From Chlamydiota bacterium (GTDB lineage Bacteria > Chlamydiota > Chlamydiia > Chlamydiales > JAAKFR01), in NCBI GenBank assembly GCA_021772455.1, contig JAJFLY010000006.1, positions 206,677-270,676 of the forward strand: 64,000 bases of DNA. The letters run 5' to 3'. A program made the translations under genes and the position numbers. The notes under the pieces were generated by a model. The model was not told the DNA's origin and searched no databases. It was given only the letters and a program-made list of their open reading frames with translations. Of this stretch, positions 4,412 through 45,138 are shown piece after piece; position 1 is the stretch's first letter, and every line of letters starts with the position of its first letter.

Positions 4412-5500
4412 ATGGCTATTGCAGTGTCGAGATCACACCCGAGCCCAATGGATCGTTTTAGGGCGCGTTCGAGAAACCAATACATAGGAGTAAGCCATAC
4501 AAAAATCCATAGCGTTTTTTTTGGTATTCTAGGGGTGGCCTGCATTGTAGGTGGAGCAGGATCCTATTTTCAGCTAGGACTGTCGGGTCAAGATGCAATA
4601 ATTATGATGTTATATGGTCCTTTGAGTTTCGCCATATCCGCTTGGATCGGATTTGATGAAATTAAGCTGTCTCAAATTCGAAAATGTCTTGAGGTAAACG
4701 ATTTAAAAAATGCCTGTGAGATATTGCAACGCATTCGAGGGGACTCTTCAATTACGGATGGCAGTGAAATCATTAGTCAAAAGATAATCGAGCAAGGTGA
4801 AATAGATGCCTCTTTTCGAGTGATTGAGAACACACCTCATCTTTCTGAGCTTAAGAAAAGGAACGTTGTTTTTTTCGTTTATGAGATGGCGTTAGAGCAG
4901 GGAAAAATAGGTGTTGCTCTTCAAGTTCTTAGGAATACATCGCGCCTTGGGCTTAGGAATAGTCGGCCCGAGTGCAATAGAATTATTGATAAGGCGCTGG
5001 AAATGAATAAGGCTGATGCGATTTATCGCTATGTTTTAGAGCATCATGATCCTTTTTTAATGATCACGGATGACGGTAAATGGGAGGCAGCACGCTCCTA
5101 TTTTGCTAAAAAAGCTATTTCCGAGGGGAACCTCGAGGGGGCTTTGAGAATGTGCCCAAAATCTGGCGAGCATGCCAACTCAACTTTAAGCTATATCGTT
5201 CGGAAAGTATGCATCTATCCATGGGAAATTCAAGGAAAAAAGGCAACTGCCTTAGATCGTGCTTTTGAGCAGGTACCCACGATAACAGATGAGGAAGAGA
5301 GAAATAAGGTTCTTTTTTTCATAGCCTTTCGAGCTATGTTAGATCAGAATAGTCCTCATGCTGTTAGGGCAAGAAATATGATCACGTCCGGCTGGATTAA
5401 AAGTCATCCTAGGCTTAAGGAGATCCTTTTGAAAAAGATAGAGCAAAATAACTTTGCTTCTGCCTTCATACTTGCAAAAGATTTGAGGCTTAATATTTAA
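4412..5500 (+). CDS. Inc-like bilobed membrane protein with helical repeats
   Basis: The product has 362 residues. After about 32 polar residues come two closely spaced hydrophobic stretches, about residues 33-55 and 61-82, separated by a short GLSGQ turn. This bilobed hairpin is the hallmark of chlamydial inclusion-membrane (Inc) proteins. The remaining 280 residues are helical repeats like those of the preceding gene, with which it shares a conserved block near its C-terminus. A GGAGG site lies just before the ATG, so this start is secure. It probably forms a pair with the 2355-4325 gene 86 bp upstream. If it is a true Inc, it would be secreted by the type III system and inserted in the inclusion membrane with the repeats facing the host cytosol. 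No family name can be given. Confidence 0.7.
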   Translation: MAIAVSRSHPSPMDRFRARSRNQYIGVSHTKIHSVFFGILGVACIVGGAGSYFQLGLSGQDAIIMMLYGPLSFAISAWIGFDEIKLSQIRKCLEVNDLKNACEILQRIRGDSSITDGSEIISQKIIEQGEIDASFRVIENTPHLSELKKRNVVFFVYEMALEQGKIGVALQVLRNTSRLGLRNSRPECNRIIDKALEMNKADAIYRYVLEHHDPFLMITDDGKWEAARSYFAKKAISEGNLEGALRMCPKSGEHANSTLSYIVRKVCIYPWEIQGKKATALDRAFEQVPTITDEEERNKVLFFIAFRAMLDQNSPHAVRARNMITSGWIKSHPRLKEILLKKIEQNNFASAFILAKDLRLNI

Positions 5501-6315
5501 GCAACCGTAATCGCCCACGCCAAAATAGCAATCAAGATTCCCACTCCGAGTGATAGCACCGAAAGGAGCAACATCAACCACTTTTGGCGCGCCGTCACAG
5601 GGACGGTCGCTTGATGTTGATGGACCATATGCGCATGCTCCATCGGCATCGGAGCTTCTCCGCTTTTTCGCACGGTCATCATTCCATGTTTCAGGCCTGA
5701 TCTGACAAGCCAGCGGTTCATCGGGAATGCAATAATCCCCGCAATAATTGTCGCTAAGCTCATCTTCCCCCAAAAATGGATCGAGAGAGGTGAGGCTGCA
5801 GAGGGCTCAACCATATTCCAGATCACCATCGTCGGAATCATCCCGGTCATGATCATATTCATCGAGGTAAACTCGGGGTAGAATGAGGTGCTAAGCGCCT
5901 TGAAATACGTTCCGCCCATCATCTTTCTCATGAATAGGGATTGGAAAATCAGCAGGCCAAAAAAGAAACCGGCGAAATACTCGATCGCAAGCTCTAGGGG
6001 GAGGCTGATCTGAAAGAAGGCGATCACAAGGGCAGCAATTATAATCCCTGTCACATCGCCAGCTAAGCAGTGAACCATAGATCCAAGCGATTGCTTCCAA
6101 AGGGGCTCGATAAACTTTTCGTGGGTGCCGGGCATCGGCTCTTTGCAGGCAAGAAGGTAGAAGAAGAGGCCGATTGGGCCGGCGTAGAGAGTGACGAGCC
6201 ACCACCCTGCTTTCATAACCGATGCCTCTGGCGTGACGACAATGAGGTCGTAGGTAAGATAGATTAGGGATAGTCCTGTCAGCACAAACCAAAAGATTAA
6301 AATTCCATCGATCAT
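5497..6315 (-). CDS. DUF4396-like multi-pass membrane protein
   Basis: From the ATG at 6315 (GAGGCAAAG just upstream) the protein has 272 residues and about seven predicted membrane segments. Motifs such as WWLVTLYAGPIGLFFY, GSMVHCLAGDVTGI, MRKMMGG and a final pair of helices match my memory of DUF4396 proteins. A cytoplasmic or periplasmic loop is rich in Met and His (PMPMEHAHMVHQHQ), which could bind copper or another soft metal. The function of the family is unknown. The gene diverges from the respiratory operon with only 18 bp between the two start codons. A role in metal supply to the cbb3 oxidase is conceivable but is inference. A longer reading frame upstream of 6315 has no support. 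Confidence 0.65.
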   Translation of the reverse strand: MIDGILIFWFVLTGLSLIYLTYDLIVVTPEASVMKAGWWLVTLYAGPIGLFFYLLACKEPMPGTHEKFIEPLWKQSLGSMVHCLAGDVTGIIIAALVIAFFQISLPLELAIEYFAGFFFGLLIFQSLFMRKMMGGTYFKALSTSFYPEFTSMNMIMTGMIPTMVIWNMVEPSAASPLSIHFWGKMSLATIIAGIIAFPMNRWLVRSGLKHGMMTVRKSGEAPMPMEHAHMVHQHQATVPVTARQKWLMLLLSVLSLGVGILIAILAWAITVA

Positions 6316-6333
6316 CTTTCTTTGCCTCGCAAA

Positions 6334-8187
6334 ATGAATTTTGATATTGTCGTCAGCATGAATGATGCCAAACGCGTTTATCGTGAACTTTACGATGTGG
6401 TGATTCCCGATCTGGACTATTTTATCCGCCAGATCGACTGTCGTGATGGCTGCCCGGTTAACACCGACGGGCGGGGCTATATGATGGCAATCCACTCAGG
6501 GAATTTGCTGGAAGGATACAAGATTGCGCGGGGACCGAATCCCTTTGCATCGATCTGTGGAGTTATTTGTGGCGCGCCGTGCGAGATCGCGTGTAGGCGC
6601 GATCGTGTCGATAAGACGCTGACAATCCGGGCGCAGAAGCGGTATCTCGACGAGTGGTTTGGATTGGACAAGGAAGCTCATATTAAATCGCTTGAGTATA
6701 GTTATTCACGTGGAACAACGCAGCCAACTTTTAATGGAAAGCGTGTGGCGTGTGTGGGAGCTGGCGTTGCCTCGCTGACGTGCGCTCACGATTTGCTTCG
6801 TTTGGGGTATCAGGTCGATGTTTATGAGCAGATGCCGATGCCAGGTGGGATGCTGGTCTATGGCGTTCCGAATTATCGGCTGAAGAACAACATTGCGGTG
6901 AACGAGTGTGCAGCGATTGAGTTTCTAGGGGCTAAGGTGTTCTACAACACGAAGGTAGGGCGCGATATCACGATGACCGAGCTTCAAGAGCGCTATGACT
7001 CGGTCTTTATTGGGAATGGGCTTTGGAAATCGCGTGGTCTTCCTCTACCGGGCTTTGATGCGCCTGATATTATCCGCGGTGTTGAGTATTTACGAGTGAT
7101 GTGCGCGGAAGATCGGTGGAAAATTGGAAAACATGTGGTGGTTGTTGGTGGTGGAAATGTCGCTTTTGATGTGAGCCGTACGTCGGTGCGTAATGGGGCC
7201 GATACGGTGACGATGGTTTGCTTAGAGGCGCGCGATGAGCAAACAGCCGATGAATTTGAGATCGAGGATGGTGAGGAAGAGGGAATCAAGATTATCAATC
7301 GGGTCGGTCCGATTGGTGTGGAAAGGAATTCCAAAGGGAAAATCGTGGGCTTGAGAGTGCAGCGTATTCGCTCCCTTTTTGATTCTGATGGGAGATTCGA
7401 CGCCGATTTTATTCCAGATACCGAATTTATCATTCCGTGCGACACGATTGCCCTTGCGATTGGTCAGGCGATGGATATGAGCGTCTTCGATGGGTGGGAT
7501 AAACGCGAGGAACTTGTGTTTGACCGCGGCATTATAAAAACGGAGCGTGATTCGGGGCGTACATCTGTTGAGGGTGTATATGCAGGTGGGGATGGCGCTT
7601 TTGGAGCATCATTGTTTATTACGGCGATTCGCCATGGGCAGTTTGCGGCACGTTCGATCGACACCGATTTGCGGGCCACCAAGCCGTATCAGGAATTTGT
7701 CGGGATGTTTACGACGATTCCACCTATGCGCGATAAAACCTATTTGCGCACCGAATGGTCTTTGCCGACGATGCAGCCTGCAAGCGTTCGAAAGGGCAAT
7801 TTCAACATGGTTGAGAACAATTATACCCCTGAGGAAGTACACCAGCAGTCTAACCGCTGTTTACAGTGCCATGTTTCGCCGGTTTTTGATGGCGCGCTTT
7901 GTATTAAATGCAATGGATGCGTCGATGTGTGCCCCACAAACTGTTTGAAGCAGGTTCCTCTTTCAATGATGAATCTCGACTTGGCAGAAGGGAATATGCG
8001 GCGCGCTGTCGACAATAATTTTGGGATCAATTCGAGAGAGCTGGGAGAGGAAGATTTAGACTTAATTGGGACCGCAATGTTAAAAGATGAGGACCTTTGT
8101 ATCCGTTGTGGCCTTTGTGCTGAAAAGTGTCCGACGCAAGCGGTGACGATGGATGTGATGAATTACTCTTACCGCTGGATCGGGTAG
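6334..8187 (+). CDS. GltD-like FAD/Fe-S oxidoreductase with C-terminal ferredoxin domain
   Basis: This 617-residue soluble protein is built like the small subunit of glutamate synthase with an added ferredoxin. An N-terminal Fer4_20-type region carries CRDGCP and the series CGVICGAPCEIAC. An FAD fold follows (VACVGAGVAS, about residue 140), then an NAD(P)H fold (VVVGGGNVAFD, about 270) and AGGDGAFGAS for flavin binding. The C-terminus has CLQC, CIKCNGCVDVCP and CIRCGLCAEKCP, enough for two [4Fe-4S] clusters. No glutamate synthase large subunit is nearby. As first gene of the Rieske/cytochrome b/cbb3 operon it probably passes electrons from NAD(P)H or a ferredoxin-like donor to the quinone pool or complex. 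An ATG at 6334 is chosen; a TTG at 6322 and an ATG at 6358 are alternatives. Confidence 0.85.
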   Translation: MNFDIVVSMNDAKRVYRELYDVVIPDLDYFIRQIDCRDGCPVNTDGRGYMMAIHSGNLLEGYKIARGPNPFASICGVICGAPCEIACRRDRVDKTLTIRAQKRYLDEWFGLDKEAHIKSLEYSYSRGTTQPTFNGKRVACVGAGVASLTCAHDLLRLGYQVDVYEQMPMPGGMLVYGVPNYRLKNNIAVNECAAIEFLGAKVFYNTKVGRDITMTELQERYDSVFIGNGLWKSRGLPLPGFDAPDIIRGVEYLRVMCAEDRWKIGKHVVVVGGGNVAFDVSRTSVRNGADTVTMVCLEARDEQTADEFEIEDGEEEGIKIINRVGPIGVERNSKGKIVGLRVQRIRSLFDSDGRFDADFIPDTEFIIPCDTIALAIGQAMDMSVFDGWDKREELVFDRGIIKTERDSGRTSVEGVYAGGDGAFGASLFITAIRHGQFAARSIDTDLRATKPYQEFVGMFTTIPPMRDKTYLRTEWSLPTMQPASVRKGNFNMVENNYTPEEVHQQSNRCLQCHVSPVFDGALCIKCNGCVDVCPTNCLKQVPLSMMNLDLAEGNMRRAVDNNFGINSRELGEEDLDLIGTAMLKDEDLCIRCGLCAEKCPTQAVTMDVMNYSYRWIG

Positions 8188-8331
8188 ATGGAGATATTTA
8201 TCTTTCTTCTGATCGCACTCTTCGGTGGCTTAGCGGGTTTGGGTGTCTTCATCTATCACATGCGCAAAGGGCAGTTTGAGGATCCTGAAGATCCAAAATA
8301 CCAAATGTTTAGGGATGACGATAATGCCTAA
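8188..8331 (+). CDS. ccoS: CcoS-like cbb3 oxidase maturation protein
   Basis: A 47-residue protein starts directly after the stop of the preceding gene. It has one N-terminal membrane helix (FIFLLIALFGGLAGLGVFIY) and then the segment GQFEDPEDPKYQMFRDDD. The pattern GQFDDPEGPA..RIL.DD is the signature of CcoS, a small membrane protein needed to insert haem b and copper into the catalytic subunit of cbb3 oxidases. Its last 8 bases overlap the start of the Rieske gene. Lying in the bc part of the operon, away from ccoN, is unusual and suggests that the whole array is one transcription unit. Confidence 0.85.
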   Translation: MEIFIFLLIALFGGLAGLGVFIYHMRKGQFEDPEDPKYQMFRDDDNA

Positions 8332-8833
8332 GTATCGAAATAGTTTGAATGTGCTGAATAAGGACAAGGATCCGCAAATTTCGCGACGCCGTTTTTTGGC
8401 GTTGGCTGGATGGGGAGCTGTCGCGTGTGTGGGGGGCGCCCTAGGAGCTGCGATGCTTGGCTATCTCTATCCAAATGCCTTGAAAATCCCGCCTAGCCTC
8501 TTTTCTTTGGGTCGCCCGGTCGATGTACTCGCCTCTGAAGGGCGTGTCTTTTTGCCGAAGCAAAAGGTTTTTGTAGAAGTGGCACGTGGACGCGTTCGCT
8601 GCATGACGGCGATCTGCACCCATTTGGGGTGCACCGTAAACGCTGTCGAAACGGGCTACAAGTGTCCATGCCACGGTTCGACCTATGATCTTGATGGGGA
8701 TAATACAGGTGGGCCTGCCCCCTCGCCTCTTCTCTATTATCGGATTTATAAAGGGGCATCGGGCGAGCTTTTGGTCGACAAAAGTCGGCGAATTGATACT
8801 CCTTCTGAGGGGTGGTTCACACCAACGGTTTAA
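8324..8833 (+). CDS. Rieske [2Fe-2S] protein of a cytochrome bc complex
   Basis: The 169-residue product begins at the ATG at 8324, preceded by AGGGATG. It has a twin-arginine signal (SRRRFLALAGWG, residues about 23-34) running into a membrane anchor. The cluster-binding boxes CTHLGC and CPCHGS lie 10 residues apart near residues 92 and 108, followed by the GPAPSPL loop. These give the two Cys and two His ligands and the disulfide pair of a high-potential Rieske centre. It oxidises quinol at cytochrome b and hands electrons to a cytochrome c, presumably the multihaem protein encoded two genes downstream. Export of the folded protein would need Tat, and tatA and tatC are at 18.5-19.4 kb. Confidence 0.93.
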   Translation: MPKYRNSLNVLNKDKDPQISRRRFLALAGWGAVACVGGALGAAMLGYLYPNALKIPPSLFSLGRPVDVLASEGRVFLPKQKVFVEVARGRVRCMTAICTHLGCTVNAVETGYKCPCHGSTYDLDGDNTGGPAPSPLLYYRIYKGASGELLVDKSRRIDTPSEGWFTPTV

Positions 8834-8836
8834 GTT

Positions 8837-10165
8837 ATGGCAAGTTTTAAAGGAAAAAAGAAACCGAGTTTTTTAGAGATGATCGAGAGTTTTCCGGCAA
8901 ATTTTGTCCGGTCGATTTTCCGTCACAACTATCCCAACAACGATGTCGATCGCTCTGAGATCGTCTTTAAGAACTTTTTCCTCCACATTCACCCAGTAAA
9001 GTGCCACAAGACGGTCGTTGACCCTTTTCATACTTTAGGACTTGGAACAATCACCGCATCGCTCTTTTTCTTGCTTGTGATTACGGGCGTGGTCTTGATG
9101 TTCTTTTACATTCCAGCAGTCGATAGGGCCTACACGATTTTGGTCGATTGGCTTGATACGACCCCTTTTGCGATGATGTGGCGCAATATCCATAGGTGGG
9201 CAGCGCAGCTGATGGTCCTCTTTGTCTTTTTGCATATGAGCCGCGTCTTCTATATGGGGGCGTACAAAGGGGAGCGAAAATTCAACTGGGTGATCGGTGT
9301 CCTTTTGATGGTCGTCACCCTTTTCCTCTCGTTCACTGGCTACCTACTCCCTTGGGATCAGCTCGCCTTTTGGGCGATTACGGTCGGCTCAGAGATCGCC
9401 GGCTACGTGCCGGGAATTCCGGGGATGCAATATAACATCAATAAACTGATGTTATTGGGCTCGACCACGGTTGGGCAAGATGCGCTGATTCGCTTCTATG
9501 TGCTGCATGTGATGGTTTTGCCCCTTTTGGCGGGAATGTTACTCGGTGTCCACTTCTGGCGGATCCGAAAAGATGGTGGTCTCGCACGTCCTTCTGACAA
9601 ATGGCGCCCTGATCCTTATCGTGTTGTCCAGCGTTCCGATACTAAAGAGTCGTTTGCACCAGGGGTGCGCCGCACCTACGGGTTGATGGAGCTTGTGCGG
9701 GGGTCGTGCCCCTCTGTCGACCGTGGCCCTGAAAACTACATTTTCACCTGGCCCAACTTGCTGCGTGCCGAGTTGATGGTCTTTTTGGGAACAGCTGCGC
9801 TCACAATTCTTTTGGCTGTTTTCATCGATGCCCCTCTTGAGGAGATTGCCGACCCCTCCAAGCCGACAAATCCGGCAAAAGCTCCTTGGTATTTCCTTGG
9901 TTTGCAGGAAATGGTCGCCTACAATGCCTTTTGGGGTGGGGTTGCCGTCCCCACTTTGATCGTGATCGGCCTGGCGCTTATCCCCTATTTTGACCGCAAT
10001 CCGCACGGTGAGGGGGTGTGGTTTCATCGTAGCCGCTATCTGGCGATCTTCCTCTACACCTCTTTTATGACGTTTCAGGGGATCTTGGTGGTCATTGGTG
10101 TCTTCTTTAGAGGGCCGAATTGGGCGTGGATTTGGCCGTGGACTGAAAATTTTGCGAGGCACTAA
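8837..10165 (+). CDS. cytochrome b, fused b6/subunit IV type
   Basis: The 442-residue integral membrane protein has about eight helices. Haem b ligands are H119 and H133 in one helix and H224 and H239 in another, so the spacings are 13 and 14 residues; the longer second spacing is that of b6-type proteins. The quinol-site motif, normally PEWY, reads APWY here (APWYFLGLQE), so the usual glutamate is absent. The C-terminal part corresponds to subunit IV, fused as in mitochondrial-type cytochrome b. With the Rieske protein just upstream it forms the core of the quinol-oxidising complex. The stop codon abuts the start of the multihaem cytochrome gene, so the genes are translationally linked. Confidence 0.93.
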   Translation: MASFKGKKKPSFLEMIESFPANFVRSIFRHNYPNNDVDRSEIVFKNFFLHIHPVKCHKTVVDPFHTLGLGTITASLFFLLVITGVVLMFFYIPAVDRAYTILVDWLDTTPFAMMWRNIHRWAAQLMVLFVFLHMSRVFYMGAYKGERKFNWVIGVLLMVVTLFLSFTGYLLPWDQLAFWAITVGSEIAGYVPGIPGMQYNINKLMLLGSTTVGQDALIRFYVLHVMVLPLLAGMLLGVHFWRIRKDGGLARPSDKWRPDPYRVVQRSDTKESFAPGVRRTYGLMELVRGSCPSVDRGPENYIFTWPNLLRAELMVFLGTAALTILLAVFIDAPLEEIADPSKPTNPAKAPWYFLGLQEMVAYNAFWGGVAVPTLIVIGLALIPYFDRNPHGEGVWFHRSRYLAIFLYTSFMTFQGILVVIGVFFRGPNWAWIWPWTENFARH

Positions 10166-13100
10166 TTGAAGTATCAAAACTTTTATCAGTTTTTGCTCCT
10201 CTTTTTTGCCTTTTTAGTCGTTTTCGGTGTGGGCTATTTTGTCTACAAGGAGATCTTTCCCGAGTATAAAACCTATCAATACGCCTACGAAGAGCTCGAA
10301 CAGTTTCGCGCGAGCTACACGGCAGAAAAACCGGCTCCCTTTGCAACGGGAATTAAGCAAATTCTGATACCCGATAAAAAGGAAGGGCCCGAAATCATCG
10401 ATCGATGCATCTCGTGCCACGTTGCTGTTGATTTGCCCCACTTTTCTCCGGTTCGTGTCGCCCTCGATGTGAACGATAACGTGATCTATAATGAGGAAGG
10501 GAAGCCCGAGCTTGAAACGAACCCAGATTACGTTTGGGAGCGCCTTGAGACGCGGATTGCAGAGCTGAGACATCCAGCATTTACAACCGATCAGAAAGAA
10601 GCCCTTACTGAGGCTGAATATCTCGAAAGTCTTTTGCCCTTTAAAAAAGCGCTTCAGATGCACCCGCTTATAGGCTCAGAAACGCGTCCGTTTCAATACC
10701 ATCCGATGGAGGAGTACGGCTGCACGTCGTGTCACAGCGGAAATGGGCGTTCTCTTGTCGCTAAGCGGGCTCACGGCCCGATTTATGATGAAGATTATGA
10801 ACCTTCTCACACCTTAAAAGCGCCGCAGTTTACCGAAAAGGATGAGGAGAACGATCCACCTTTTGCACGCATGTATAACCATAAACCAGGTCACGATCTT
10901 GTTTTTCAAACAACTCCCCTTCTTGTGGGAGATTTGATCGTTGCAAAGTGTGTTCAGTGCCATCAACCCTCCTCGACTCAGGTCCACGAATCGGTCGAAA
11001 AGCTCAACAATTTTGCCGATCAAAAAGAAGACCAGATCAAACGGATCGAAAAGGGGCTTGAGAACGACCAAGAAGCCGTTCAGAGCCTACTTACCCTCCA
11101 AAGCACTTTGGCAATGAGTGGACGTGAAGGGACGCTTGAGTGGGTGAAGGAGGAGCTTGGAAATTACCGCCTCTCTTCTACAGAAATCGACGCATTTGAA
11201 GGACAACGAGCCTATATTGAAAGGCATGAAGACCTTGGAAAAGCAATCGACGGTGATCTGAGCCGATTAGAAGGTGCCATTGCTGCAAAGCAAAAGGCTC
11301 TTGCCTCCGAACAGCAAGTACTTGAACGTTTTCGGGATGGAACACGAGTTGAACAGGATACGGCAGTTATCGATCGGATGGGCACCCAAGTTGACCAGCT
11401 CATTCTTAACTATACCCGAGGCAAAGAGCTTTTCGTTTCTCAAGCGTGTTACGCCTGTCATCGGATCGCTGGATTTTCGCGCGCAAGTGTTGGCCCTGAG
11501 CTAACTTTCGCGGGCTTAAGTTATCCTTGGTACATCAAAGAATCGATCGTGTGGCCACAGGCCGATCTCCCCTCATCTACAATGCCAAACTTCCGTCTCG
11601 ACCATGATGAGCTTCAAGATTTGATGACTTTTTTAATGGCCCAAACAGGGGATACGAAAGCAGTTTCGGAGGTCGATTACCAAATTTCTTTAGCTGAGTG
11701 GGAAGCTGGGGCTGAGCTCCCTTGGGAAAAACCGGTTCCTCCAACGGCGATTGAAAATGTGCGCAAAGGGATGGATGTCTTTGTCTCGGAAGGGTGCGCC
11801 GCGTGCCACAAGCTCGAAGGTTTTGAATCAAATGTCGGCTTTGCCAATGGGAATACGATCGAGGAGCGCGAGTGGTTTTACCGCTTAATCCCCGAACAAG
11901 CCCCAGGCTCGCGCATCGCACAGATTGTCGAGACAAAAGGAGAAGAGATCGACGCTCGGATTGTCGATGGTGTGGGTGAAAATGGGATCATCGAGGAGAT
12001 TCAAGCGAAATATCCAGGTCTTGTCGAAGGGTTTTATTCCAATTTCAAATTTGCAGAGCGATTGATCGATCCAGCTAACAAAGATCTGCTGGCGCGCGTA
12101 TTAATGATGTACATCCAACTTTATGGGATGGGAAGAGATATCGCGCCGCACCTAAACTGGTCGGGTGTCTACCGAGACGATGCGTGGCTTCTTGGACATT
12201 TCCACAATCCAAACGCCTATACCGCCAGATCAATCATGCCGGTTATGCCGTTTGATGATACGAAGTTCTACATGCTCAATAATATGTTGCGCGTGTTGGG
12301 AGCAAAAAACCGCGATCAGCTCCGCGCGATTTGGCAGGAGCAAGGATTTAGCCCGCCCCTTGCCTACGAATTACTTTGTAGTTCATGCCATGGGACGCAG
12401 CGTCAAGGAAATGGAATAATTTCCGAGTGGATCTACCCAATTCCTAAGAACTTGCGCAATCCCGTTTTCTTGCGCAACTTGACCAAAGAACGAGCGATCG
12501 ATTCGATCACCCATGGAATAACCGGAACGCCGATGCCTCCTTGGGGGGAAGCGGCTTCTGTGACCGATCCCGTGCCTGTTTTGACCCGTATGGAGATTAC
12601 ACAATTGGTCGATTGGCTCTACCAAGGACTACCAGAGCAAACGCGTAAAGAGAGACAAGAAGATTTCGAAAAGTGGCAATACTCTCCTGAAGATGTCGTT
12701 AAAGAGATGGAAAAAGAGAGGGATTTGCTGCAGCCCGTTCCACCAAAGGTCGATGTTGCCGATTACTTTGAAGCGCGCCCAAATCCAATTCCTGGCCCTG
12801 ACAAGGAGCTCTATTACATCCGCGAAAAGTACTACACCGATCAAAACTTCGATGAAGCTGAAAAGTTCTATCTTGTGAATTGCGCCACATGCCATGGCAA
12901 AGAGGGTGGAGGGACAGGTTTGCGTGCCACCTCGATGGTAGAGGCCAAGCCACGAATGTTAACCAACCTTCCGTGGCTCCGCACACGCGATGATTTGCGT
13001 CTTATGCGTTCGATCAAATATGGGGTTCCGGGAACATCGATGATTCCGTGGGGTGATATGACAACGGCAGCTCAACGTATGCAGCTGGTGATCTTCATCC

Positions 13101-13720
13101 GCGAATTGACGAAGAATCAGATCTTAAATGACGAATTTGAAGAGGTGCTCTACGACGTCTTTGATAGCCGAATTTTGGAGATTGAGCAGGCGCGCATTAC
13201 CGAATATAAACAACTCGAAAATATGGAAAAAACGCTTCAGGAAGAGCAGGAGAAGCTTTATGCGCTCGATCCTGTAGAGGGTGGAAAACTGTACACGAAG
13301 ATCGCCCAGCTTAAGGTAGAACTTGCACACCAAAAAGCGCTCGATGGTCAATATCAAGATTTGATTGGTGTGATCAAAGAGGAAAAAAGAGCGCTTCAGG
13401 GTGTCGGTGGGCAATTAATCGGAGCGCAGATCCCCGAGCGGCTTGTGCGATATTTCTTCGAGATTGTCCGTGATGAAGAGACCCCCTCTTTGGAGTATTT
13501 ACTGAATGAACTCGATCAAAAAATTGACGATTTCGAGGAGAAAATTAAACTAGAAGAGGCAAAAATTCGCGACCCCGAACGGGGGCGGGTGATTCAGGGC
13601 TTGATGGAAGAGCAAGGAACCTATATCAATTTAAGAACAAAACTCGTGGTTCAGCTCGCTGATGTAAAAAAGCTACGCAAACAAGAGCGTGAAATTTATG
13701 ACAAACTCAGTAATCCATAG
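10166..13720 (+). CDS. membrane-anchored seven-haem cytochrome c
   Basis: This 1184-residue protein starts with TTG at 10166, immediately after the cytochrome b stop. Residues about 8-28 form an N-terminal membrane anchor. Seven CxxCH motifs lie near residues 81, 186, 262, 428, 544, 738 and 906. The last four sit in mono-haem class I cytochrome c domains, two of them with clear distal Met candidates (TMPNF, GTPMPPW). Residues about 275-390 and about 1010-1180 are long coiled coils. It replaces a separate cytochrome c1 and, lying between the bc genes and ccoN, is the obvious electron conduit from the Rieske centre to the cbb3 oxidase. The coiled coils may brace a supercomplex. I know no close named family for the full-length architecture. 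Confidence 0.85.
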   Translation: MKYQNFYQFLLLFFAFLVVFGVGYFVYKEIFPEYKTYQYAYEELEQFRASYTAEKPAPFATGIKQILIPDKKEGPEIIDRCISCHVAVDLPHFSPVRVALDVNDNVIYNEEGKPELETNPDYVWERLETRIAELRHPAFTTDQKEALTEAEYLESLLPFKKALQMHPLIGSETRPFQYHPMEEYGCTSCHSGNGRSLVAKRAHGPIYDEDYEPSHTLKAPQFTEKDEENDPPFARMYNHKPGHDLVFQTTPLLVGDLIVAKCVQCHQPSSTQVHESVEKLNNFADQKEDQIKRIEKGLENDQEAVQSLLTLQSTLAMSGREGTLEWVKEELGNYRLSSTEIDAFEGQRAYIERHEDLGKAIDGDLSRLEGAIAAKQKALASEQQVLERFRDGTRVEQDTAVIDRMGTQVDQLILNYTRGKELFVSQACYACHRIAGFSRASVGPELTFAGLSYPWYIKESIVWPQADLPSSTMPNFRLDHDELQDLMTFLMAQTGDTKAVSEVDYQISLAEWEAGAELPWEKPVPPTAIENVRKGMDVFVSEGCAACHKLEGFESNVGFANGNTIEEREWFYRLIPEQAPGSRIAQIVETKGEEIDARIVDGVGENGIIEEIQAKYPGLVEGFYSNFKFAERLIDPANKDLLARVLMMYIQLYGMGRDIAPHLNWSGVYRDDAWLLGHFHNPNAYTARSIMPVMPFDDTKFYMLNNMLRVLGAKNRDQLRAIWQEQGFSPPLAYELLCSSCHGTQRQGNGIISEWIYPIPKNLRNPVFLRNLTKERAIDSITHGITGTPMPPWGEAASVTDPVPVLTRMEITQLVDWLYQGLPEQTRKERQEDFEKWQYSPEDVVKEMEKERDLLQPVPPKVDVADYFEARPNPIPGPDKELYYIREKYYTDQNFDEAEKFYLVNCATCHGKEGGGTGLRATSMVEAKPRMLTNLPWLRTRDDLRLMRSIKYGVPGTSMIPWGDMTTAAQRMQLVIFIRELTKNQILNDEFEEVLYDVFDSRILEIEQARITEYKQLENMEKTLQEEQEKLYALDPVEGGKLYTKIAQLKVELAHQKALDGQYQDLIGVIKEEKRALQGVGGQLIGAQIPERLVRYFFEIVRDEETPSLEYLLNELDQKIDDFEEKIKLEEAKIRDPERGRVIQGLMEEQGTYINLRTKLVVQLADVKKLRKQEREIYDKLSNP

Positions 13721-15119
13721 AGACAAGCCGGTAAAGCAAATGCTATATCCTGCGCTCATCTTTTTGGTTATCGGCCTTTTTATTGGTGTATTCATCTCGA
13801 TCAACGGCTTCTTGTTCCCCGACTACTTCAAAGGGCAATATATCCATTTTGGAAGAGTGCGTCCCGTTCATGTGACAGTGGTTACATTGCTTTGGCTGCT
13901 CTCAGCGAATATAGGATTGATGTACTTTTTTGTCCCACGCCTTTGCGGCACGCCCCTGTGGAGTGTCAGGCTTGCTTCGATTACAAACTATACGTGGTGG
14001 ATCGCGCTCATTCTAGGCGCCTTCTCCTTCCCTCTTGGGACGAATTTTGGGTGGGAATATGCGGAACTTCCTATGACGATCGGGGGAGGCTGGATTCCGA
14101 TTAAGTTGATCGTGACACTTGCATGGGTCTTATTTGTAGTAAATATCTTCATGACCATTGTAAAGCGGCATTACAAGAAGATGTATGTCTCTCTGTGGTA
14201 TGTGATGGGAACCCTCATTTGGACCTCATTTACCTTTATCGTTGGCAATTTTGCCATCGAATGGGTTCCTCAAGGGATCTCTCGGGTCAATACCAGTTTT
14301 TTTTACGTTCACAACCTCGTGGGATTGATTTTTACTCCTATGGGTCTTGCGATTGCCTACTACTTCATTCCCAAAATTTCAGGGACCCCCATTTTTAGTC
14401 ATCGACTCTCAATGATCGGTTTTTGGTCGATCGCTTTTGTCTACGCTTGGATTGGCGCCCACCACATGCTCCACGGTCCCGAATCGCAGTGGCTGCAAAC
14501 AACGAGCATCGTCTTCTCTTTGTGGCTCATTATTCCAGTGTGGACCGTTGTCACAAACCTTTTAGGAACCGTGAAAGGTCAGTGGCAGATGTATAGCAAA
14601 AGCGCCCCCTTGCGCTTTTTGACAATGGGCGTTGTCTTCTATCTCATCGTCTGTTTCCAAGGTTCGTTACAGTCGCTTCGCAATGTAAACGAAATGATCT
14701 CTAAAACCGATTGGATCATCGGCCACGCTCACATGTCTTTGCTCGGAACCTTCACTTTTTTTGCCATCGGAGGGATTTACTACGCTGTTCCTAAGATCAC
14801 AGGCAAGCCCCTCTGGTCCCATAGACTTGCTGATTGGCACTTTTCTCTCGCACTTTTCGGCTCTGTGTTGATGTTTGTCGCACTTTGGCTTGGTGGCTTC
14901 AAACAAGGGCTACAGTGGGCAAGCTGGGGAACAGGCGATTCGTACGCCCAGTTCCACGAAAATTTGAGTCGTTTGCCCTTTTTAACGACCCTAGAGTTGA
15001 TGTGGTGGTGGTGGTTTGCCCGGACAATCTCTGGAGTGATCATCCTTGTCGGATGCTCTATTTTTCTCCTGAATATGATGAATACGATTATCTTAAAGCC
15101 TGAGAGGGTTGAAACATGA
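13698..15119 (+). CDS. ccoN: cbb3-type cytochrome c oxidase subunit I
   Basis: The product is the catalytic haem-copper subunit, 473 residues from the ATG at 13698, which overlaps the end of the previous gene. About twelve membrane helices are predicted. RPVHVTVVTLLW carries a haem b ligand, FFYVHNLVG and WIGAHHMLHGP supply the active-site Cu ligands, and GHAHMSLLG carries the high-spin and low-spin haem ligands. These identify a C-family (FixN/CcoN) oxidase with high oxygen affinity, which reduces O2 to water and pumps protons. A GTG at 13689 would add three residues. Pathogenic Chlamydia use a bd-type oxidase, so this marks a broader respiratory chain. Confidence 0.93.
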   Translation: MTNSVIHRDKPVKQMLYPALIFLVIGLFIGVFISINGFLFPDYFKGQYIHFGRVRPVHVTVVTLLWLLSANIGLMYFFVPRLCGTPLWSVRLASITNYTWWIALILGAFSFPLGTNFGWEYAELPMTIGGGWIPIKLIVTLAWVLFVVNIFMTIVKRHYKKMYVSLWYVMGTLIWTSFTFIVGNFAIEWVPQGISRVNTSFFYVHNLVGLIFTPMGLAIAYYFIPKISGTPIFSHRLSMIGFWSIAFVYAWIGAHHMLHGPESQWLQTTSIVFSLWLIIPVWTVVTNLLGTVKGQWQMYSKSAPLRFLTMGVVFYLIVCFQGSLQSLRNVNEMISKTDWIIGHAHMSLLGTFTFFAIGGIYYAVPKITGKPLWSHRLADWHFSLALFGSVLMFVALWLGGFKQGLQWASWGTGDSYAQFHENLSRLPFLTTLELMWWWWFARTISGVIILVGCSIFLLNMMNTIILKPERVET

Positions 15120-16312
15120 AAGGCTTACATCGTTTAGAATGGTCGGCCGTTTGGACTCTTCTTGGAGTTATCGTCCTTTTTTCATCCGCCATAGGAGTGA
15201 CCCTCTTTGCTCCCCAGTTCATTGATCCAAGTTGGAGGCAGGCTTCGAGCACCTATCAAGTGCAAATGTACGAAGTTTCCGATCCAAACGTTTACGTGAG
15301 CACCTCCAACCCAGGAGGATGGGGGCTGCAATATGTCTACCATCTCCAAGAAGGCTTTACCCTTCACTCGTATCAGGAGAGTCCTCTCGTACGTATTTTA
15401 GCCTCCAAAGAACTTGAGAAATACGTCACGCGCCACGGCCAAAAAGAGCGGATCTTGACCAGCCGCGTGCTGCTGCTGCGCCCTGCCGAGAAAGCGCACG
15501 CTTATCAAAAAGAGCTTCAAGCTGAGTGGGAAGGTGAAACGCCTCCCCATTTTGAAATCTTGGAGCTCTACGATCCGCTGAAAAGCGAAGCATTTGCCAT
15601 TACAGAAACCGACGGCGTTGTTGAAAACTGGGTCGATGAAAACTTTTCCATACTCGATACACCTCCTCCCTACACAACGGAAAAAGGAGTGATCTTTGTC
15701 AATAACCCCAAAGAGTACCGCATCTCCTCCAGAAACTACCTCGGAACCCACTCTTGGATTTACGATGAAAATGGCGAGCCCATTAACGATTTAAATGAGC
15801 TCAAAGAGGGCAAACTCCGCTTTTTATCCCGCCAATCTCTAATTAAGATTGGGGAGGACATCTATCGAGTTGAAGGGTGTTGGTATTGCCACACCGATCA
15901 AACGCGCACACTTGTACAAGATACCGTTGTCAACGGTTCTGCTGATTTTCCTGCGCCCCCCTCCTCTGCAAACGAATATATCTATCAAAGGGTAACCTTT
16001 CCCGGCACCCGCCGCATTGGCCCCGACCTTTCACGCGTTGGCATTAAACGGCCACACCGCGATTGGCATATGTCTCACTTCCAATCTCCCTCCTCAGAGA
16101 GTAAAGGAAGCATCATGCCCTCGTTTGGCCATTTCTTTGACGACGACCCCGCCGGAACCTTTGCCAGCCCCTATAGCGTGCCGAATTACAAGTTTGAGGC
16201 GATTTTCCAATACCTCATGACAAAAGGGACCCGCATCACCCCACCCAACCAAGCGTGGTGGCTTGGTCTCGACCCGATTCAAACGATTGACATCATTGAG
16301 GGGAGACGATGA
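15116..16312 (+). CDS. ccoO: cbb3 oxidase mono-haem subunit II with a large insertion
   Basis: The 398-residue protein overlaps ccoN by 4 bp. Residues about 14-36 are a membrane anchor. The haem c motif CWYCH is at residues 255-259, and RRIGPDLSRVG with a downstream SIMPSFG for the Met ligand completes a CcoO-type cytochrome domain. In ordinary CcoO proteins the CxxCH lies roughly 60-70 residues from the N-terminus. Here about 190 extra residues lie between the anchor and the haem domain. The insertion contains no CxxCH and no motif that I recognise. Identity as CcoO is firm; the role of the insertion is unknown and may be a docking surface for the multihaem cytochrome. Confidence 0.9.
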   Translation: MKGLHRLEWSAVWTLLGVIVLFSSAIGVTLFAPQFIDPSWRQASSTYQVQMYEVSDPNVYVSTSNPGGWGLQYVYHLQEGFTLHSYQESPLVRILASKELEKYVTRHGQKERILTSRVLLLRPAEKAHAYQKELQAEWEGETPPHFEILELYDPLKSEAFAITETDGVVENWVDENFSILDTPPPYTTEKGVIFVNNPKEYRISSRNYLGTHSWIYDENGEPINDLNELKEGKLRFLSRQSLIKIGEDIYRVEGCWYCHTDQTRTLVQDTVVNGSADFPAPPSSANEYIYQRVTFPGTRRIGPDLSRVGIKRPHRDWHMSHFQSPSSESKGSIMPSFGHFFDDDPAGTFASPYSVPNYKFEAIFQYLMTKGTRITPPNQAWWLGLDPIQTIDIIEGRR

Positions 16313-16470
16313 TTGATGGTGTCGGTGTTTATGGATTTGTACTGCACTACGCGCTTCTATTTGCGTTTTTTGGAAGCGCCGTGCTTGTTTTTCTCTACTT
16401 ATGGAGAAAGAAGCGCTTAGATATGGATGAAGAGGCAAAATACTCCATGTTCTTGGAAGAGGAGGAATGA
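16309..16470 (+). CDS. ccoQ: CcoQ-like small subunit
   Basis: A 53-residue protein overlaps the end of ccoO by 4 bp and the start of the next gene by 4 bp. It has one membrane helix (residues about 10-31) followed by a charged tail, WRKKRLDMDEEAKYSMFLEEEE. Size, position and topology fit CcoQ, a single-helix protein that stabilises cbb3 oxidase. The sequence itself is too short for a strong family match, so the call rests largely on operon position. Confidence 0.65.
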   Translation: MIDGVGVYGFVLHYALLFAFFGSAVLVFLYLWRKKRLDMDEEAKYSMFLEEEE

Positions 16471-16700
16471 TGGAAGAAGAGATCCCAGTAACAGAAGATC
16501 GTAAAGTTCCGAAATTTCTATATGTCACGTACGTGTTTATGTTTGTGTGGGGCCTTTGGGCGTTGATCGCCTATTGGAATGGCTCACACGGGTGGCTTGA
16601 TAGGGGCTACTGGCAACAGCTCCAAGAGGCGGCTAACACGACCTTTCCGTTCGAAGAGAAGGAGCCGTACCTCCAAGAGGATTCGGTCCTAAGAAGTTAG
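16467..16700 (+). CDS. CcoP-like anchor lacking haem domains
   Basis: The 77-residue product has one membrane helix (residues about 18-38, FLYVTYVFMFVWGLWALIAY) after a short acidic N-terminus, then SHGWLDRGYWQQLQE. This resembles the N-terminal anchor of the di-haem subunit CcoP, including the position after ccoQ, but the protein stops before any CxxCH. A normal CcoP is around 300 residues with two haems. There is no sign of a frameshifted remainder, since the minus-strand OTU gene follows at once. The haem functions were probably taken over by the seven-haem protein of the same operon. Confidence 0.65.
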   Translation: MMEEEIPVTEDRKVPKFLYVTYVFMFVWGLWALIAYWNGSHGWLDRGYWQQLQEAANTTFPFEEKEPYLQEDSVLRS

Positions 16701-17815
16701 TTCTGTGTATTATAAGGATTGTAGTGGTTGCGCGAGTGGGTGAAATGACGTGCTGGTCGCTCACCACTCTCTAGCTCAGGATTCATCGTGATGTGCGCAT
16801 CCTGTGTGATATCTTCTCCTCGCTTAGCATGGATTTTCACGCAGACTTGATGGCGACAGCTTAGGGCATAAAGCTCAGCAGCTCCACCATGAATCCCTTG
16901 TTTTGACATTTCCTGGAAATATTCTTCCAGAAATGGGGTGGTAGTTTCCGACAAAATCGGGAAGATGTACTGTGTTTCGATATTTTGAATTTCTTCTCCG
17001 ATTTGCTGTCTTCGCTCCTCTGTTCCTGCGATTTCGGCAAGCCCCTGTCTATCGGCCTCTAGGTGTTCAATCTTTGCAAAGTAATGCTCTGCTAGGGAAG
17101 TGGCAAGATGGCCTCTTAGAACGACGTTTTCATTGTTGTCTCGCATCCATTGGACAGTCAATTGGCGCTCCTCCTGTAGATTATTTTGACGGGAACCATT
17201 CATCTCTGAGTGGTAAAGCGAGGCTTCAAAAAGGCAGTCCCCATTATCGGGAACAGCGACCTCACCTTCCCGAATCGCACATTTAAAGTAATCGTAATGA
17301 TGTTGAATTGATTCGATCCAGAGCGAAAGAAACAGATATTCTTTAGCGGCAGGTATGAGAGGATTGTTACTTTTGTCTGCAGAAGGCATGGGAACAACTT
17401 TGAGTTGTTCAGGAATACTTTCTAATCTTTCTCTGATTTCTGCAAGGGCGTTCGGATTAATGTTTATGCGATCGATACGTTCAAGCCCCTGCCGTACCTC
17501 AGCGAAGATAGGACGAGCATGTTCTACTAGAAGATTGGTGTCAGGAGCAGGACCGGCCACATCGTTGGCTGGTTCGGGCTTTTGAGTGGATCTGCGGCTA
17601 AGAAGGGCCAATAGCACAACGGAGCCAAGAGTACTGACGCCAGCGGTGCTATACATAGCAGTGGCGGGAAGCCACCCGGTGGCTCCAGCTGTAGCCGCAC
17701 CAATTGCTGCAATAATTAGAAGGGCGCAAAGAATTTTTTTAGCTCCAATGCCTCCGCGGTTCTCATTTTGAGCTTGCCCAGGAGAAGGGAGGCGATCTGA
17801 TTGGACTATAGGCAT
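16697..17815 (-). CDS. OTU-family cysteine protease with N-terminal membrane hairpin
   Basis: The 372-residue protein has two adjacent hydrophobic segments (about residues 25-46 and 53-73) with a short turn between them, as in Inc proteins. The C-terminal half is an OTU domain. DNGDCLFEA gives the catalytic Cys194 with its Asp, GGAAELYALSCRHQVCVKI corresponds to the conserved GG..EL.AL region, and RNHYNPY supplies His364. OTU proteases cleave ubiquitin chains. Such enzymes are known effectors of intracellular bacteria including Chlamydiae, so this is probably delivered to the host and anchored in the inclusion membrane, with the protease facing the cytosol. An AAGGAA site precedes the ATG. 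The gene converges on the CcoP-like gene (4-bp overlap) and diverges from an Inc-like gene. Confidence 0.82.
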   Translation of the reverse strand: MPIVQSDRLPSPGQAQNENRGGIGAKKILCALLIIAAIGAATAGATGWLPATAMYSTAGVSTLGSVVLLALLSRRSTQKPEPANDVAGPAPDTNLLVEHARPIFAEVRQGLERIDRININPNALAEIRERLESIPEQLKVVPMPSADKSNNPLIPAAKEYLFLSLWIESIQHHYDYFKCAIREGEVAVPDNGDCLFEASLYHSEMNGSRQNNLQEERQLTVQWMRDNNENVVLRGHLATSLAEHYFAKIEHLEADRQGLAEIAGTEERRQQIGEEIQNIETQYIFPILSETTTPFLEEYFQEMSKQGIHGGAAELYALSCRHQVCVKIHAKRGEDITQDAHITMNPELESGERPARHFTHSRNHYNPYNTQN

Positions 17816-17930: not shown

Positions 17931-18527
17931 ATGTCAGAAAAAATTTCTACTCAGTATTTAGGGTTTTTTCCAAAGTGCTTTCCAGTATGTGATCGGCATT
18001 TCGGAAAGATCACTCTACTTGCCCTCTCAATTCTCGCGTTTGTAGGGGGAATAGGTGTTCTTTATGGAGGATTCAATGCGAGCGTCGCAGGAGCTATCGT
18101 ATCGGGCGTCCTTGCAGTCGGGTTCCTTGTCTTGGTGATAAAGAGCGCTTCTAGAGGTTCCCGGGCTGATGTTGATCCATTTGCAAACCGGCCTGTCGAT
18201 GAGATTACATCGGGTGAGCTTGAAAAAATGTTCCCCACTCACATGTATGAAAAGTTGCCTGAGCTCGAAAGAAAAATGGCTGCTATCCCTGTTGAAATGG
18301 TCCATCGGTTGATTGGTCGCGGTCTAGTTGGATCTTGGCTCGCGCTTATTTCCCAAGAACAGATTAAAACTCTTAATTTTTCGAGATTATCTGCGCGCCA
18401 GGTCACAAATATGTTTCCTATTCATCAGGAAGAGTTGACTATTCTTGGTTACAAGCGGTTGAGATGGCTTACCAACCAACAACTATTCGATCGTAATGAG
18501 AAGTTCAGAGAAGCTGGCCGTTTGTGA
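17931..18527 (+). CDS. Inc-like inclusion membrane protein candidate
   Basis: The 198-residue product has about 26 polar N-terminal residues, then a bilobed hydrophobic region, about residues 27-47 (ITLLALSILAFVGGIGVLYGG) and 50-71, separated by only a few residues. The remainder is a hydrophilic, probably helical domain with repeated EEL/LxxLS..Q patterns (LISQEQIKTLNFSRLSARQV). This topology is the classic Inc signature; Inc proteins share little sequence, so no orthologue can be named. It diverges from the OTU gene over about 115 bp and converges on tatC with a 23-bp overlap. Predicted role: type III-secreted inclusion membrane protein. Confidence 0.7.
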   Translation: MSEKISTQYLGFFPKCFPVCDRHFGKITLLALSILAFVGGIGVLYGGFNASVAGAIVSGVLAVGFLVLVIKSASRGSRADVDPFANRPVDEITSGELEKMFPTHMYEKLPELERKMAAIPVEMVHRLIGRGLVGSWLALISQEQIKTLNFSRLSARQVTNMFPIHQEELTILGYKRLRWLTNQQLFDRNEKFREAGRL

Positions 18528-19212
18528 TTTTAGTTGAGCGAAATCTTGCATAAAGCACCGATGTCTCGTAAAGAAGGAGCATGGGTCCTGCAAGCAGGAG
18601 CTGAGAGAGGATGTCTGGAGGGGTCAAGATTGCTGCTAGGAACAGGATGACGACAATCACAGCCCGCCTGCTACGCCTTAGCTGCTCGCTTGTTAAAAAG
18701 CCAAAATGAATCAAGAAAAGTAATCCGACGTAAAGTTCAAAGACAAGGCCGTGCCCAAGGACGAGCATGAGTGCGAAGTTGAGCGTTTGCCCAAGCCCCC
18801 ACAAATTTTCCCCGATTCCCTGATTAAACTTTTGGAAGAACTGTGTCACAAGTGGCAGGGTGATCGTATAGGCAAAGAGAATGCCGCAGGAGATGAAAAG
18901 AAGCGATAGCCCAAGGAATGGGAGGATAAGCTTTTTTTCGCGCCCAAGGAGCGCTGGAAGGGTAAACTGTAGCAAGAGATAGGTCCAGATGGGTGAGGAG
19001 GCAAGGAGGCCTGTCCAAAAGGATGTTTTGAGGACGGTCACAAACCCTTCGATGGGGCTAAAGAGATAGAGGTGATCGATGCCTAGTGGTGCGAGGAGGA
19101 GCTTGAAGAGGGGTTTATGAAAGCAAAAGGCGGCAAGCGTTGCGAGGACAACGACAAGCCCCATCCGTAAAAGAGCTTTGCGCAGCTCTTCAAGATGTTC
19201 CCAAAAATTCAC
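18505..19212 (-). CDS. tatC: Sec-independent protein translocase subunit TatC
   Basis: The 235-residue protein starts with GTG at 19212 and has about six membrane helices. The N-terminal FWEHLEELRKALLR segment is the conserved TatC signature that recognises twin-arginine signals; FSPIEGFV and a later AILTPPD (PPD motif before the last helices) are also typical. It overlaps tatA by 4 bp. Together they form a minimal Tat system for export of folded proteins such as the Rieske protein at 8324. Confidence 0.95.
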   Translation of the reverse strand: MNFWEHLEELRKALLRMGLVVVLATLAAFCFHKPLFKLLLAPLGIDHLYLFSPIEGFVTVLKTSFWTGLLASSPIWTYLLLQFTLPALLGREKKLILPFLGLSLLFISCGILFAYTITLPLVTQFFQKFNQGIGENLWGLGQTLNFALMLVLGHGLVFELYVGLLFLIHFGFLTSEQLRRSRRAVIVVILFLAAILTPPDILSQLLLAGPMLLLYETSVLYARFRSTKITNGQLL

Positions 19213-19367
19213 TCTTTATCTTCCTCTTCCTCGTCGATCCCTTGGGTGGCTTTTTTAAAGGCGCGCATCCCTTTGCCCAAGCTACGGGCAAATTCGGGGA
19301 GGCGCTTCCCACCAAAGAGGATCAGCACGACAAAGAGGATTAAGATTAATTCCCAGCCGCCGATCAT
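19209..19367 (-). CDS. tatA: Sec-independent protein translocase subunit TatA
   Basis: A 52-residue protein begins at the ATG at 19367. MIGGWELILILFVVLILFGG forms the membrane helix and ends in the FGGKRLPE motif diagnostic of TatA/TatE, followed by an amphipathic helix (FARSLGKGMRAFKKA) and an acidic tail. It overlaps tatC by 4 bp and the CT584-like gene by 4 bp, so the three are translationally coupled. There is no separate TatB in the window. Confidence 0.93.
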   Translation of the reverse strand: MIGGWELILILFVVLILFGGKRLPEFARSLGKGMRAFKKATQGIDEEEEDKE

Positions 19368-44329: not shown

Positions 44330-45106
44330 TTAAGTGTTAGCAGTTGTCGCACGACGACGGCGACGACGTGGAGCTTCTTCACCCTCTACTTCTGCAGCCT
44401 CAGCTTCCTGCCAGAAGAGGACGCGCGAACAATGTTCGCAGAAAACCAATCGATCTCCTTTACGAACCAAATTCTCATGCTGAGGGGTAAGAAGAATATG
44501 ACAGCCACTGCATGTGCGGTTTTCAATCGGAACAACAACGCGATCACGCTTGTTTTTCAGTAGACGCTCATAGATCTGAAAAAGCTCTTCTGGAACTCCA
44601 CCCTTCATACCCTCGCGTTTCTCTAAAATCGAACGTCCCTCTTCATTGATCTTTGCAATGCTCTCGTGGATCTCTTTTTCGATGAGTTCGCTATTTTCCT
44701 CAGTGGACTGGAGGTTTTCTTTAAGAGTCACAAGAAAATCTTCTTCAGCTGCAAGCTTATCCATAAGATCGCTAAGACGGTGCTCAACAGCGCTACGTTC
44801 ACGGCCGGCCGCAGTCATTTCTTGAGTCAACGCATTGAACTCATCCATCTTTTTCACTGCTACCTGCTGAGCTTCAAACTTCGCAACTTTCTCTTGAATC
44901 TCTTTGATCTGCGTTTCACCCATGCGAATTTCTTTTTTCACATTAGTGATTTCAGACTCTTTATCAGTTACTTGAGTCTGAATGTCCTCTTTCAGCTGAT
45001 GAATCTTAGTGAGTTCCTTTTGCCGCTCTTTTTTAACGCGCATCAGGCGAATCATATTAATATCAAGCTCTTGAATGCTAAGAATTGTCTGAAAAGACTC
45101 GTCCAT
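44330..45106 (-). CDS. cdsZ: CdsZ-like coiled-coil zinc-ribbon protein (CT398 family)
   Basis: The 258-residue protein has a long antiparallel coiled coil (about residues 15-185) and a C-terminal zinc ribbon with CSGCH and CEHC 21 residues apart, then an acidic and Arg-rich tail. This is the structure of C. trachomatis CT398 (CdsZ), reported to bind the sigma-54 factor and type III secretion components. Similar DUF proteins occur widely in bacteria. The ATG at 45106 follows a GGGATCACAT leader; an in-frame TTG at 45118 is less likely. It is transcribed from a divergent promoter region shared with the 45223 gene and precedes rnpB. Confidence 0.85.
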   Translation of the reverse strand: MDESFQTILSIQELDINMIRLMRVKKERQKELTKIHQLKEDIQTQVTDKESEITNVKKEIRMGETQIKEIQEKVAKFEAQQVAVKKMDEFNALTQEMTAAGRERSAVEHRLSDLMDKLAAEEDFLVTLKENLQSTEENSELIEKEIHESIAKINEEGRSILEKREGMKGGVPEELFQIYERLLKNKRDRVVVPIENRTCSGCHILLTPQHENLVRKGDRLVFCEHCSRVLFWQEAEAAEVEGEEAPRRRRRRATTANT

Positions 45107-45138
45107 ATGTGATCCCAAAAATTAAGAATTGATCCAAG

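Follow-up and report, generated by a model that had tools for sequence, protein, structure and literature searches.

A nine-gene operon with a seven-motif cytochrome between cytochrome b and CcoN

The 64,000-nucleotide stretch of Chlamydiota bacterium DNA analysed here (the window) carries at 6334–16700 an operon in which the genes of a Rieske/cytochrome b complex and those of a cbb3-type oxidase are separated by a single large cytochrome c gene. Its nine open reading frames (ORFs) are co-linear on the + strand, fill this interval, and either overlap by 4–32 nt or lie 0–3 nt apart. In order, they encode a flavin adenine dinucleotide (FAD)/Fe-S oxidoreductase, CcoS, a Rieske protein, cytochrome b, a 1184-aa protein with seven CxxCH motifs that we call c7, CcoN, CcoO and two small one-helix proteins; seven of the nine could be named with Pfam and NCBIfam. 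An earlier sequence-only reading of the window had described a nine-gene operon here, and all nine ORFs were recovered.

c7 (10166–13720, +, TTG start) matches Cytochrome_CBB3 (1.4e-28), Cytochrom_C (4.4e-28) and FixO (2.5e-7). All 14 of its cysteines lie within the seven CxxCH motifs, of which three (residues 81, 186 and 262) belong to a putative N-terminal tri-haem part (residues 81–266; 10406–10963, +) and four (residues 428, 544, 738 and 906) to haem domains 4–7 (residues 408–990; 11387–13135, +). The only hydrophobic segment is N-terminal, at residues 9–27. The seven motifs are conserved across the family, and with the exception of one protein, P0074, the aligned relatives keep every site that they cover. 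H166, H179 and H203 in the N-terminal part and M473, M691, M790 and M959 in domains 4–7 are also invariant; these are likely to be the distal haem ligands and suggest a set of three bis-His haems followed by four His/Met haems. The predicted model of c7, which was built without haems and has a predicted local distance difference test score below 50 at residues 165–216, contains two long-helix regions (~269–396 and ~968–1182) that are coiled-coil-like in appearance. The seven motifs attributed to this protein from the sequence were found again exactly, and the two modelled regions look like the coiled coils described there. Because some relatives have next to nothing of the first of the two stretches, the modelled helices seem to serve for bracing or spacing and not as part of the wire. 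Fold matches to residues 839–989 included E chains of solved alternative complex III structures. Relatives of c7 are currently annotated as 'mono/diheme cytochrome c family protein', 'Cytochrome c6' or 'hypothetical protein', and their annotation can be improved accordingly.

The first gene of the operon (6334–8187, +; alternative TTG start at 6322) encodes a GltD-like FAD/[4Fe-4S] oxidoreductase with Pyr_redox_2, Fer4_20 and Fer4 domains (Pfam) and no hydrophobic segment. Its closest NCBIfam model is PRK12771, with 390 bits at a cut-off of 516. We rejected its CLQCH (residue 513 of the TTG-start ORF) as a haem site because this is an Fe-S protein lacking a hydrophobic segment. CcoS, a cbb3 oxidase assembly factor, follows at 8188–8331 (+; FixS 4.2e-11, TIGR00847 just above cut-off), and then the Rieske [2Fe-2S] protein at 8324–8833 (+; PF00355 6.7e-11), which bears a twin-arginine translocation (TAT) signal (TIGR01409 above cut-off) and whose cluster boxes, C-T-H-L-G-C and C-P-C-H-G (C98–C103 and C114–G118), are conserved in at least 97% of 28 aligned sequences. 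Cytochrome b (8837–10165, +; 442 aa; cytochrome b/b6 match 1.4e-36) combines the b6 part and a subunit-IV-like part in a single chain and can be aligned to b6 chains. Two histidine pairs, H119/H133 and H224/H239, spaced 14 and 15 residues apart and conserved in at least 97% of 29 sequences, are those that we take to be its haem ligands.

CcoN (13689–15119, +; start at GTG 13689 or ATG 13698) is a C-family haem-copper oxidase subunit I (COX1 1.2e-86), although its TIGR00780 score of 273 is under the cut-off of 583. At least 97% of 25 aligned sequences retain H61, H208, Y252, H258, H259, H346 and H348; aligned with 3mk7_A, these are presumably the haem and CuB histidines and the cross-link tyrosine, with roles as in P. 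stutzeri. CcoO (15116–16312, +; 398 aa; FixO 7.7e-22), the mono-haem subunit, has one CxxCH (CWYCH at 255), and M334 is present in at least 90% of 26 sequences. The same 26-row alignment (A3) reveals an extra part of ~175 residues (~60–235) between the CcoO helix and haem domain; two of its rows are cut (L039 and L047), and a third (L044), whose gene reads as two ORFs, deviates N-terminally. This extra part is predicted with a confidence of 70–95, mostly above 84, and is a candidate docking face for c7.

The last two ORFs lie at the positions of CcoQ (16309–16470, +; placed by position and hydropathy) and CcoP (16467–16700, +; 77 aa, placed by position and member of a conserved family, A6). 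Neither contains CxxCH, nor does any of the 33 ORFs assigned to the CcoP position, fragments and overlapping loci included, and neither matches a Pfam model. FixP_N was touched by one of 21 members of the 77-aa gene's family (E 0.033), and a profile search of PDB sequences with this family returned no CcoP chain at E 10. The names CcoQ and CcoP are therefore positional, and 'CcoP', for which only the gene's place and its one hydrophobic segment speak, is not established. Of the haem-less CcoP and the CcoQ described in the sequence-only reading, the lack of haem motifs stands. Since the 77-aa gene has no CxxCH and no di-haem CcoP is encoded in the operon, we describe the oxidase as a CcoNO-type core and not as a full CcoNOP enzyme.

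Other cytochromes and oxidases in the genome

We searched the genome to which the window belongs (G000, 1.73 Mb, 99.76% complete; window on contig C36) for the proteins that this operon lacks. Cytochrome c1 (PF02167) had no match at E 1; we therefore do not file the complex as bc1 type, and a multihaem cytochrome c takes the place of c1, as it does in other published variants. Matches to class-I cytochrome c (PF13442 to E 0.1 and PF00034 to E 1) were confined to c7, in family searches that unusual cytochromes can escape and that included no genome-wide CxxCH scan. The claim that neither c1 nor a soluble cytochrome c is encoded is upheld to this extent, and a separate c1 or a haem-bearing CcoP, either of which had been named as evidence that would overturn the proposal, was not found by family searches in this genome. 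A cytochrome c assembly protein is encoded on contig C11. Among window ORFs of at least 70 aa, CxxCH occurs in c7, CcoO, the Fe-S protein and two unrelated ORFs only. The single CxxCH of a protein at 44333–45121 (−) is likely to be a zinc site, since this protein has a C4 zinc ribbon and a CT398-like coiled coil. A second haem-copper oxidase subunit I is encoded in a 667-aa frame on another contig (G000:C30:13420–14763; L001, L094), so the operon is not the organism's only oxidase.

Distribution of the operon in Chlamydiota

We counted the genes in 232 Chlamydiota genomes, leaving weak or diverged matches aside: c7 was present in 48, an orthologous cytochrome b in 49 and CcoN in 54. Every c7-bearing genome had the cytochrome b orthologue (48/48), and 46 of the 48 had CcoN. 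The one genome with cytochrome b but no c7 (G065) has a locus that runs off the contig end. A contig scan with two peptide patterns yielded 51 loci, 34 of them with c7 (L036–L069); the other 17 (L070–L086) matched over a short stretch only and carried proteobacterial titles. All nine genes occur together in 17 of the 34 c7 loci, a number that includes loci cut by contig ends, as many of the others are, and ccoN follows within 300 bp of c7 in 24 of 27 loci. The recurring gene order supports the earlier view of one operon for quinol-to-oxygen transfer. One locus (L036) bears the title of a Gammaproteobacteria metagenome-assembled genome, yet it shares 99.7% identity with the chlamydial contig of L037 across 11.2 kb, which makes its title a likely label or binning error.

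Some neighbours of the operon recur at other loci. A divergent gene with DUF4396 (5497–6495, −) also adjoins the operon in L036–L038, L048, L050 and L059. On the other side, relatives of a 372-aa protein (16697–17815, −), whose match to OTU-like cysteine proteases stays below threshold, adjoin it in L037 and L038. TatC and TatA are encoded at 18505–19367 (−), 1.8 kb downstream of the operon whose Rieske protein bears the TAT signal, and Tat genes are also found downstream in L037, L038 and L059.

Genomes without the bc genes keep oxidase genes and lack c7

Seven genomes have CcoN but no cytochrome b orthologue (G004, G036, G078, G091, G099, G107 and G110; 61, 88, 90, 61, 96, 98 and 88% complete), and c7 is absent from all seven. 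Their ccoN loci have neither cytochrome b nor c7 nor an intact Rieske gene, but keep ccoN, ccoO and the gene at the ccoP position; in six of the seven (not in L101), ccoS is also present, no more than ~0.5 kb upstream of ccoN. At L087 and L089, where the bc genes are lost, scraps are all that is left of the FAD gene. The locus of the single-contig genome G107 retains short scraps of Rieske and FAD genes, and G036 a 176-aa FAD scrap. A degenerate cytochrome b match (26% identical) was found in G078 on another contig. Because the seven genomes span three families (f1, f10 and f18) and both states occur within one genus (g78), the bc block was likely lost several times. This pattern agrees with a published account of Neochlamydia S13, in which cytochrome c oxidase is reported to be present and cytochrome c reductase absent (PMC3991601).

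As all seven genomes that keep CcoN and CcoO without cytochrome b lack c7, c7 belongs to the bc unit; the FAD protein probably does so too. The sequence-only reading had given the seven-haem protein the jobs of both c1 and CcoP. The first assignment, as c subunit of the bc complex, is likely; the second is not supported, given the seven genomes that have CcoN and CcoO without c7. These genomes also weigh against the supercomplex proposed there being obligate for the oxidase, as their oxidase genes outlive the bc half.

A di-haem TsdA/SoxA-like cytochrome was found in 35 of the 232 genomes (a weak match in G194 was dropped), 34 of which are CcoN-positive; its loci include L104–L110. Two scanned copies match PF21342 and Cytochrom_C, and stops interrupt those of G037 and G105. 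This protein might feed CcoO in lineages without bc genes; thiosulfate oxidation is a possible function. One genome has a second, more ordinary cbb3 oxidase (L093, G029:C42), with a CcoN that is 35% identical and a CcoO-CcoP-like fusion with three CxxCH.

Proposed electron path and alternatives

We propose, with a probability of about 0.7, that c7 serves the Rieske/cytochrome b complex as its c-type subunit, takes electrons from the Rieske protein and hands them directly to the single c haem of CcoO. Quinol, which would be menaquinol, would be oxidised at cytochrome b/Rieske, and electrons would pass from the Rieske protein through c7 to CcoO, CcoN and finally O2. All seven motifs of c7 would carry haem, and its anchor would hold it at cytochrome b, from where it could reach the oxidase with no soluble carrier in between. 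A side entry on the cytoplasmic face may be formed by the FAD/Fe-S protein, through which NAD(P)H or ferredoxin would exchange electrons with the quinone pool at cytochrome b. The most far-reaching version of this path is one that we put forward tentatively: c7 would be a single-chain, seven-haem cable that joins a Rieske/cytochrome b complex oxidising menaquinol permanently to a cbb3 oxidase without CcoP. Quinol-to-O2 respiration with its cytoplasmic FAD/Fe-S side entry would then run in one wired assembly, without c1, cytochrome c or CcoP haems, in a fifth of the sampled Chlamydiota species.

Several observations weigh against the proposed path. Two c7-positive genomes have no CcoN match: G003, which is 85% complete and whose contig ends 1.5 kb past c7 without ccoN, and G064, whose contig ends in c7. 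Three loci (L043, L060 and L063) show no ccoN within 4–10 kb after c7, and the bc and oxidase halves are therefore not always linked. Trees of six operon proteins agree only partly, with 2–8 of 15 splits shared and 0–4 well-supported conflicts per pair. The persistence of oxidase genes without c7 means that where c7 is gone CcoO can have another donor, or the oxidase decays. The TsdA/SoxA-like cytochrome occurs in six of the seven bc-less genomes, yet also in 28 of the 48 with c7 and in none of ten f1 genomes, so that a mobile electron donor may be present in part of the phylum. Finally, haem site 4 reads CYACL and not CYACH in P0074, a protein named Waddlia chondrophila. This lost histidine would also fit a chain that is no longer continuous because some CxxCH motifs have ceased to bind haem; with every covered site retained in the other sequences, we regard this as very improbable.

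It is quite doubtful that c7 is primarily an oxidase subunit that replaces the two haems of CcoP, with the bc half a mere genetic neighbour. In the seven genomes without a cytochrome b orthologue it is gone while ccoN and ccoO are kept, in all 48 genomes that have it cytochrome b is present too, and TIGR00782 reaches 37 of the required 180 bits. It is also unlikely, if somewhat less so, that c7 serves the bc complex but delivers mainly elsewhere (to a diffusible cytochrome, a peroxidase or an external acceptor), the oxidase being fed separately, for example by the TsdA-like cytochrome. The co-occurrence of that cytochrome with CcoN (34 of 54 CcoN-positive genomes against 1 of 178 CcoN-negative ones) speaks for such a route. 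It is missing from the genome studied here and from its family f1, however, no other class-I cytochrome c was matched in this genome, and the usual place of ccoN directly after c7 favours the oxidase as recipient. A permanent bc–cbb3 supercomplex in which c7 with its coiled coils ties the two enzymes to each other is a stronger form of our proposal, with which its odds overlap. The tight operon, the joint presence of both halves in 46 of 48 genomes, the large membrane-anchored linker, the extra part of CcoO and the bc1–cbb3 supercomplexes solved elsewhere (8smr, 6xkw; PMC7876108) are all in its favour. As oxidase genes persist without the bc half and several relatives almost lack the first stretch of long helices, we consider permanent assembly possible rather than probable.

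Direct transfer from c7 to CcoO, our preferred reading, suggests a concrete, testable route by which electrons could reach an oxidase without soluble cytochrome c, and the series of natural deletions shows which genes form one unit.

Relation to other multihaem complexes and supercomplexes

A further protein search (54 proteins, two named Parachlamydiaceae and one 'bacterium') retrieved shorter relatives of c7, P0289–P0294 (382–472 aa), with four (P0294), five (P0290–P0292) or six (P0289 and P0293, the latter named partial) CxxCH motifs. Like c7, P0289–P0293 have a hydrophobic N-terminus and three CxxCH with GC..CH and AH motifs, followed by two or three class-I haem motifs; the c7 profile matches them piecewise with the domains in the same order, and P0294 more weakly. 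Unlike c7, all six are too short for the long helices. They are likely to come from phyla other than Chlamydiota, a placement made only because they are diverged. Since such relatives with four to six motifs and similar domain order exist, reading c7 as a new fusion is not supported or too strong, and it may have arisen by enlargement of an older multihaem subunit. In addition, one chlamydial genome holds a second, diverged operon (L095, G231:C155) with the same order of FAD, Rieske and cytochrome b genes and then a c7-like N-terminus. Its cytochrome b is 48% identical to that of the operon described here, no ccoS match lies in between, and the contig ends in what follows; relatives of this cytochrome b, where named, are from Acidobacteria, Verrucomicrobia, Binatia and others. 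Judging from these proteins and from L095, a widespread FAD-Rieske-b-multihaem-c complex may well be the ancestor of the chlamydial unit, in which c7 would have been enlarged and the cbb3 genes attached.

The first search for c7 relatives gave 674 matches, 120 of them listed. Among the matches listed we saw no full-length seven-motif c7 outside Chlamydiota, L036 being read as mislabelled, and we do not claim that the family is absent elsewhere. Against plasmids, tblastn with c7 gave a 21% identical stretch in 27 Sinorhizobium records and the L095 cytochrome b gave four distant matches; P0292 and P0293 gave none.

Dharamshi et al (2023; PMC9816063) noted PetBD and CcoN/O in Chlamydiae and reconstructed them as separate complexes at different ancestors; the part of their text available to us mentions neither a multihaem subunit nor a shared operon. 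Here, 46 of 232 genomes carry both halves and one conserved linker, mostly in one operon where contigs permit. An open-access literature search, partly beyond Chlamydiae and with subscription papers outside its scope, found no description of the operon or linker in titles and abstract starts.

Among known systems, bc-type operons with an octahaem cytochrome c have been described in Nitrospina gracilis, Kuenenia stuttgartiensis and Methylomirabilis oxyfera (PMC3578206). As described in that paper, they are alike in having b6f-like Rieske and cytochrome b proteins beside a multihaem c, but their cytochrome b is split and their c octahaem, whereas the operon here has a one-chain cytochrome b, a seven-motif c with long helices, and oxidase genes following. 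The actinobacterial bcc–aa3 supercomplex (7qhm, 7e1v) uses two haems and an aa3 oxidase, compared with seven motifs and a cbb3 core here. The proteobacterial bc1–cbb3 supercomplex shares a bc complex, a cbb3 oxidase and a membrane-confined carrier with our proposal; c1, cytochrome cy and di-haem CcoP, which are reported there (PMC7876108), were not found here. To judge by its PDB title, the 'NOH' complex 9g6b is a solved cbb3 without CcoP. Complex III variants with multihaem c and bc1–cbb3 supercomplexes are known from these same sources (PMC3578206; PMC7876108). Not met with among the open-access titles and abstract starts listed is the combination found here, one operon that encodes both a single-chain linker with seven motifs and a cbb3 core without a haem-bearing CcoP.

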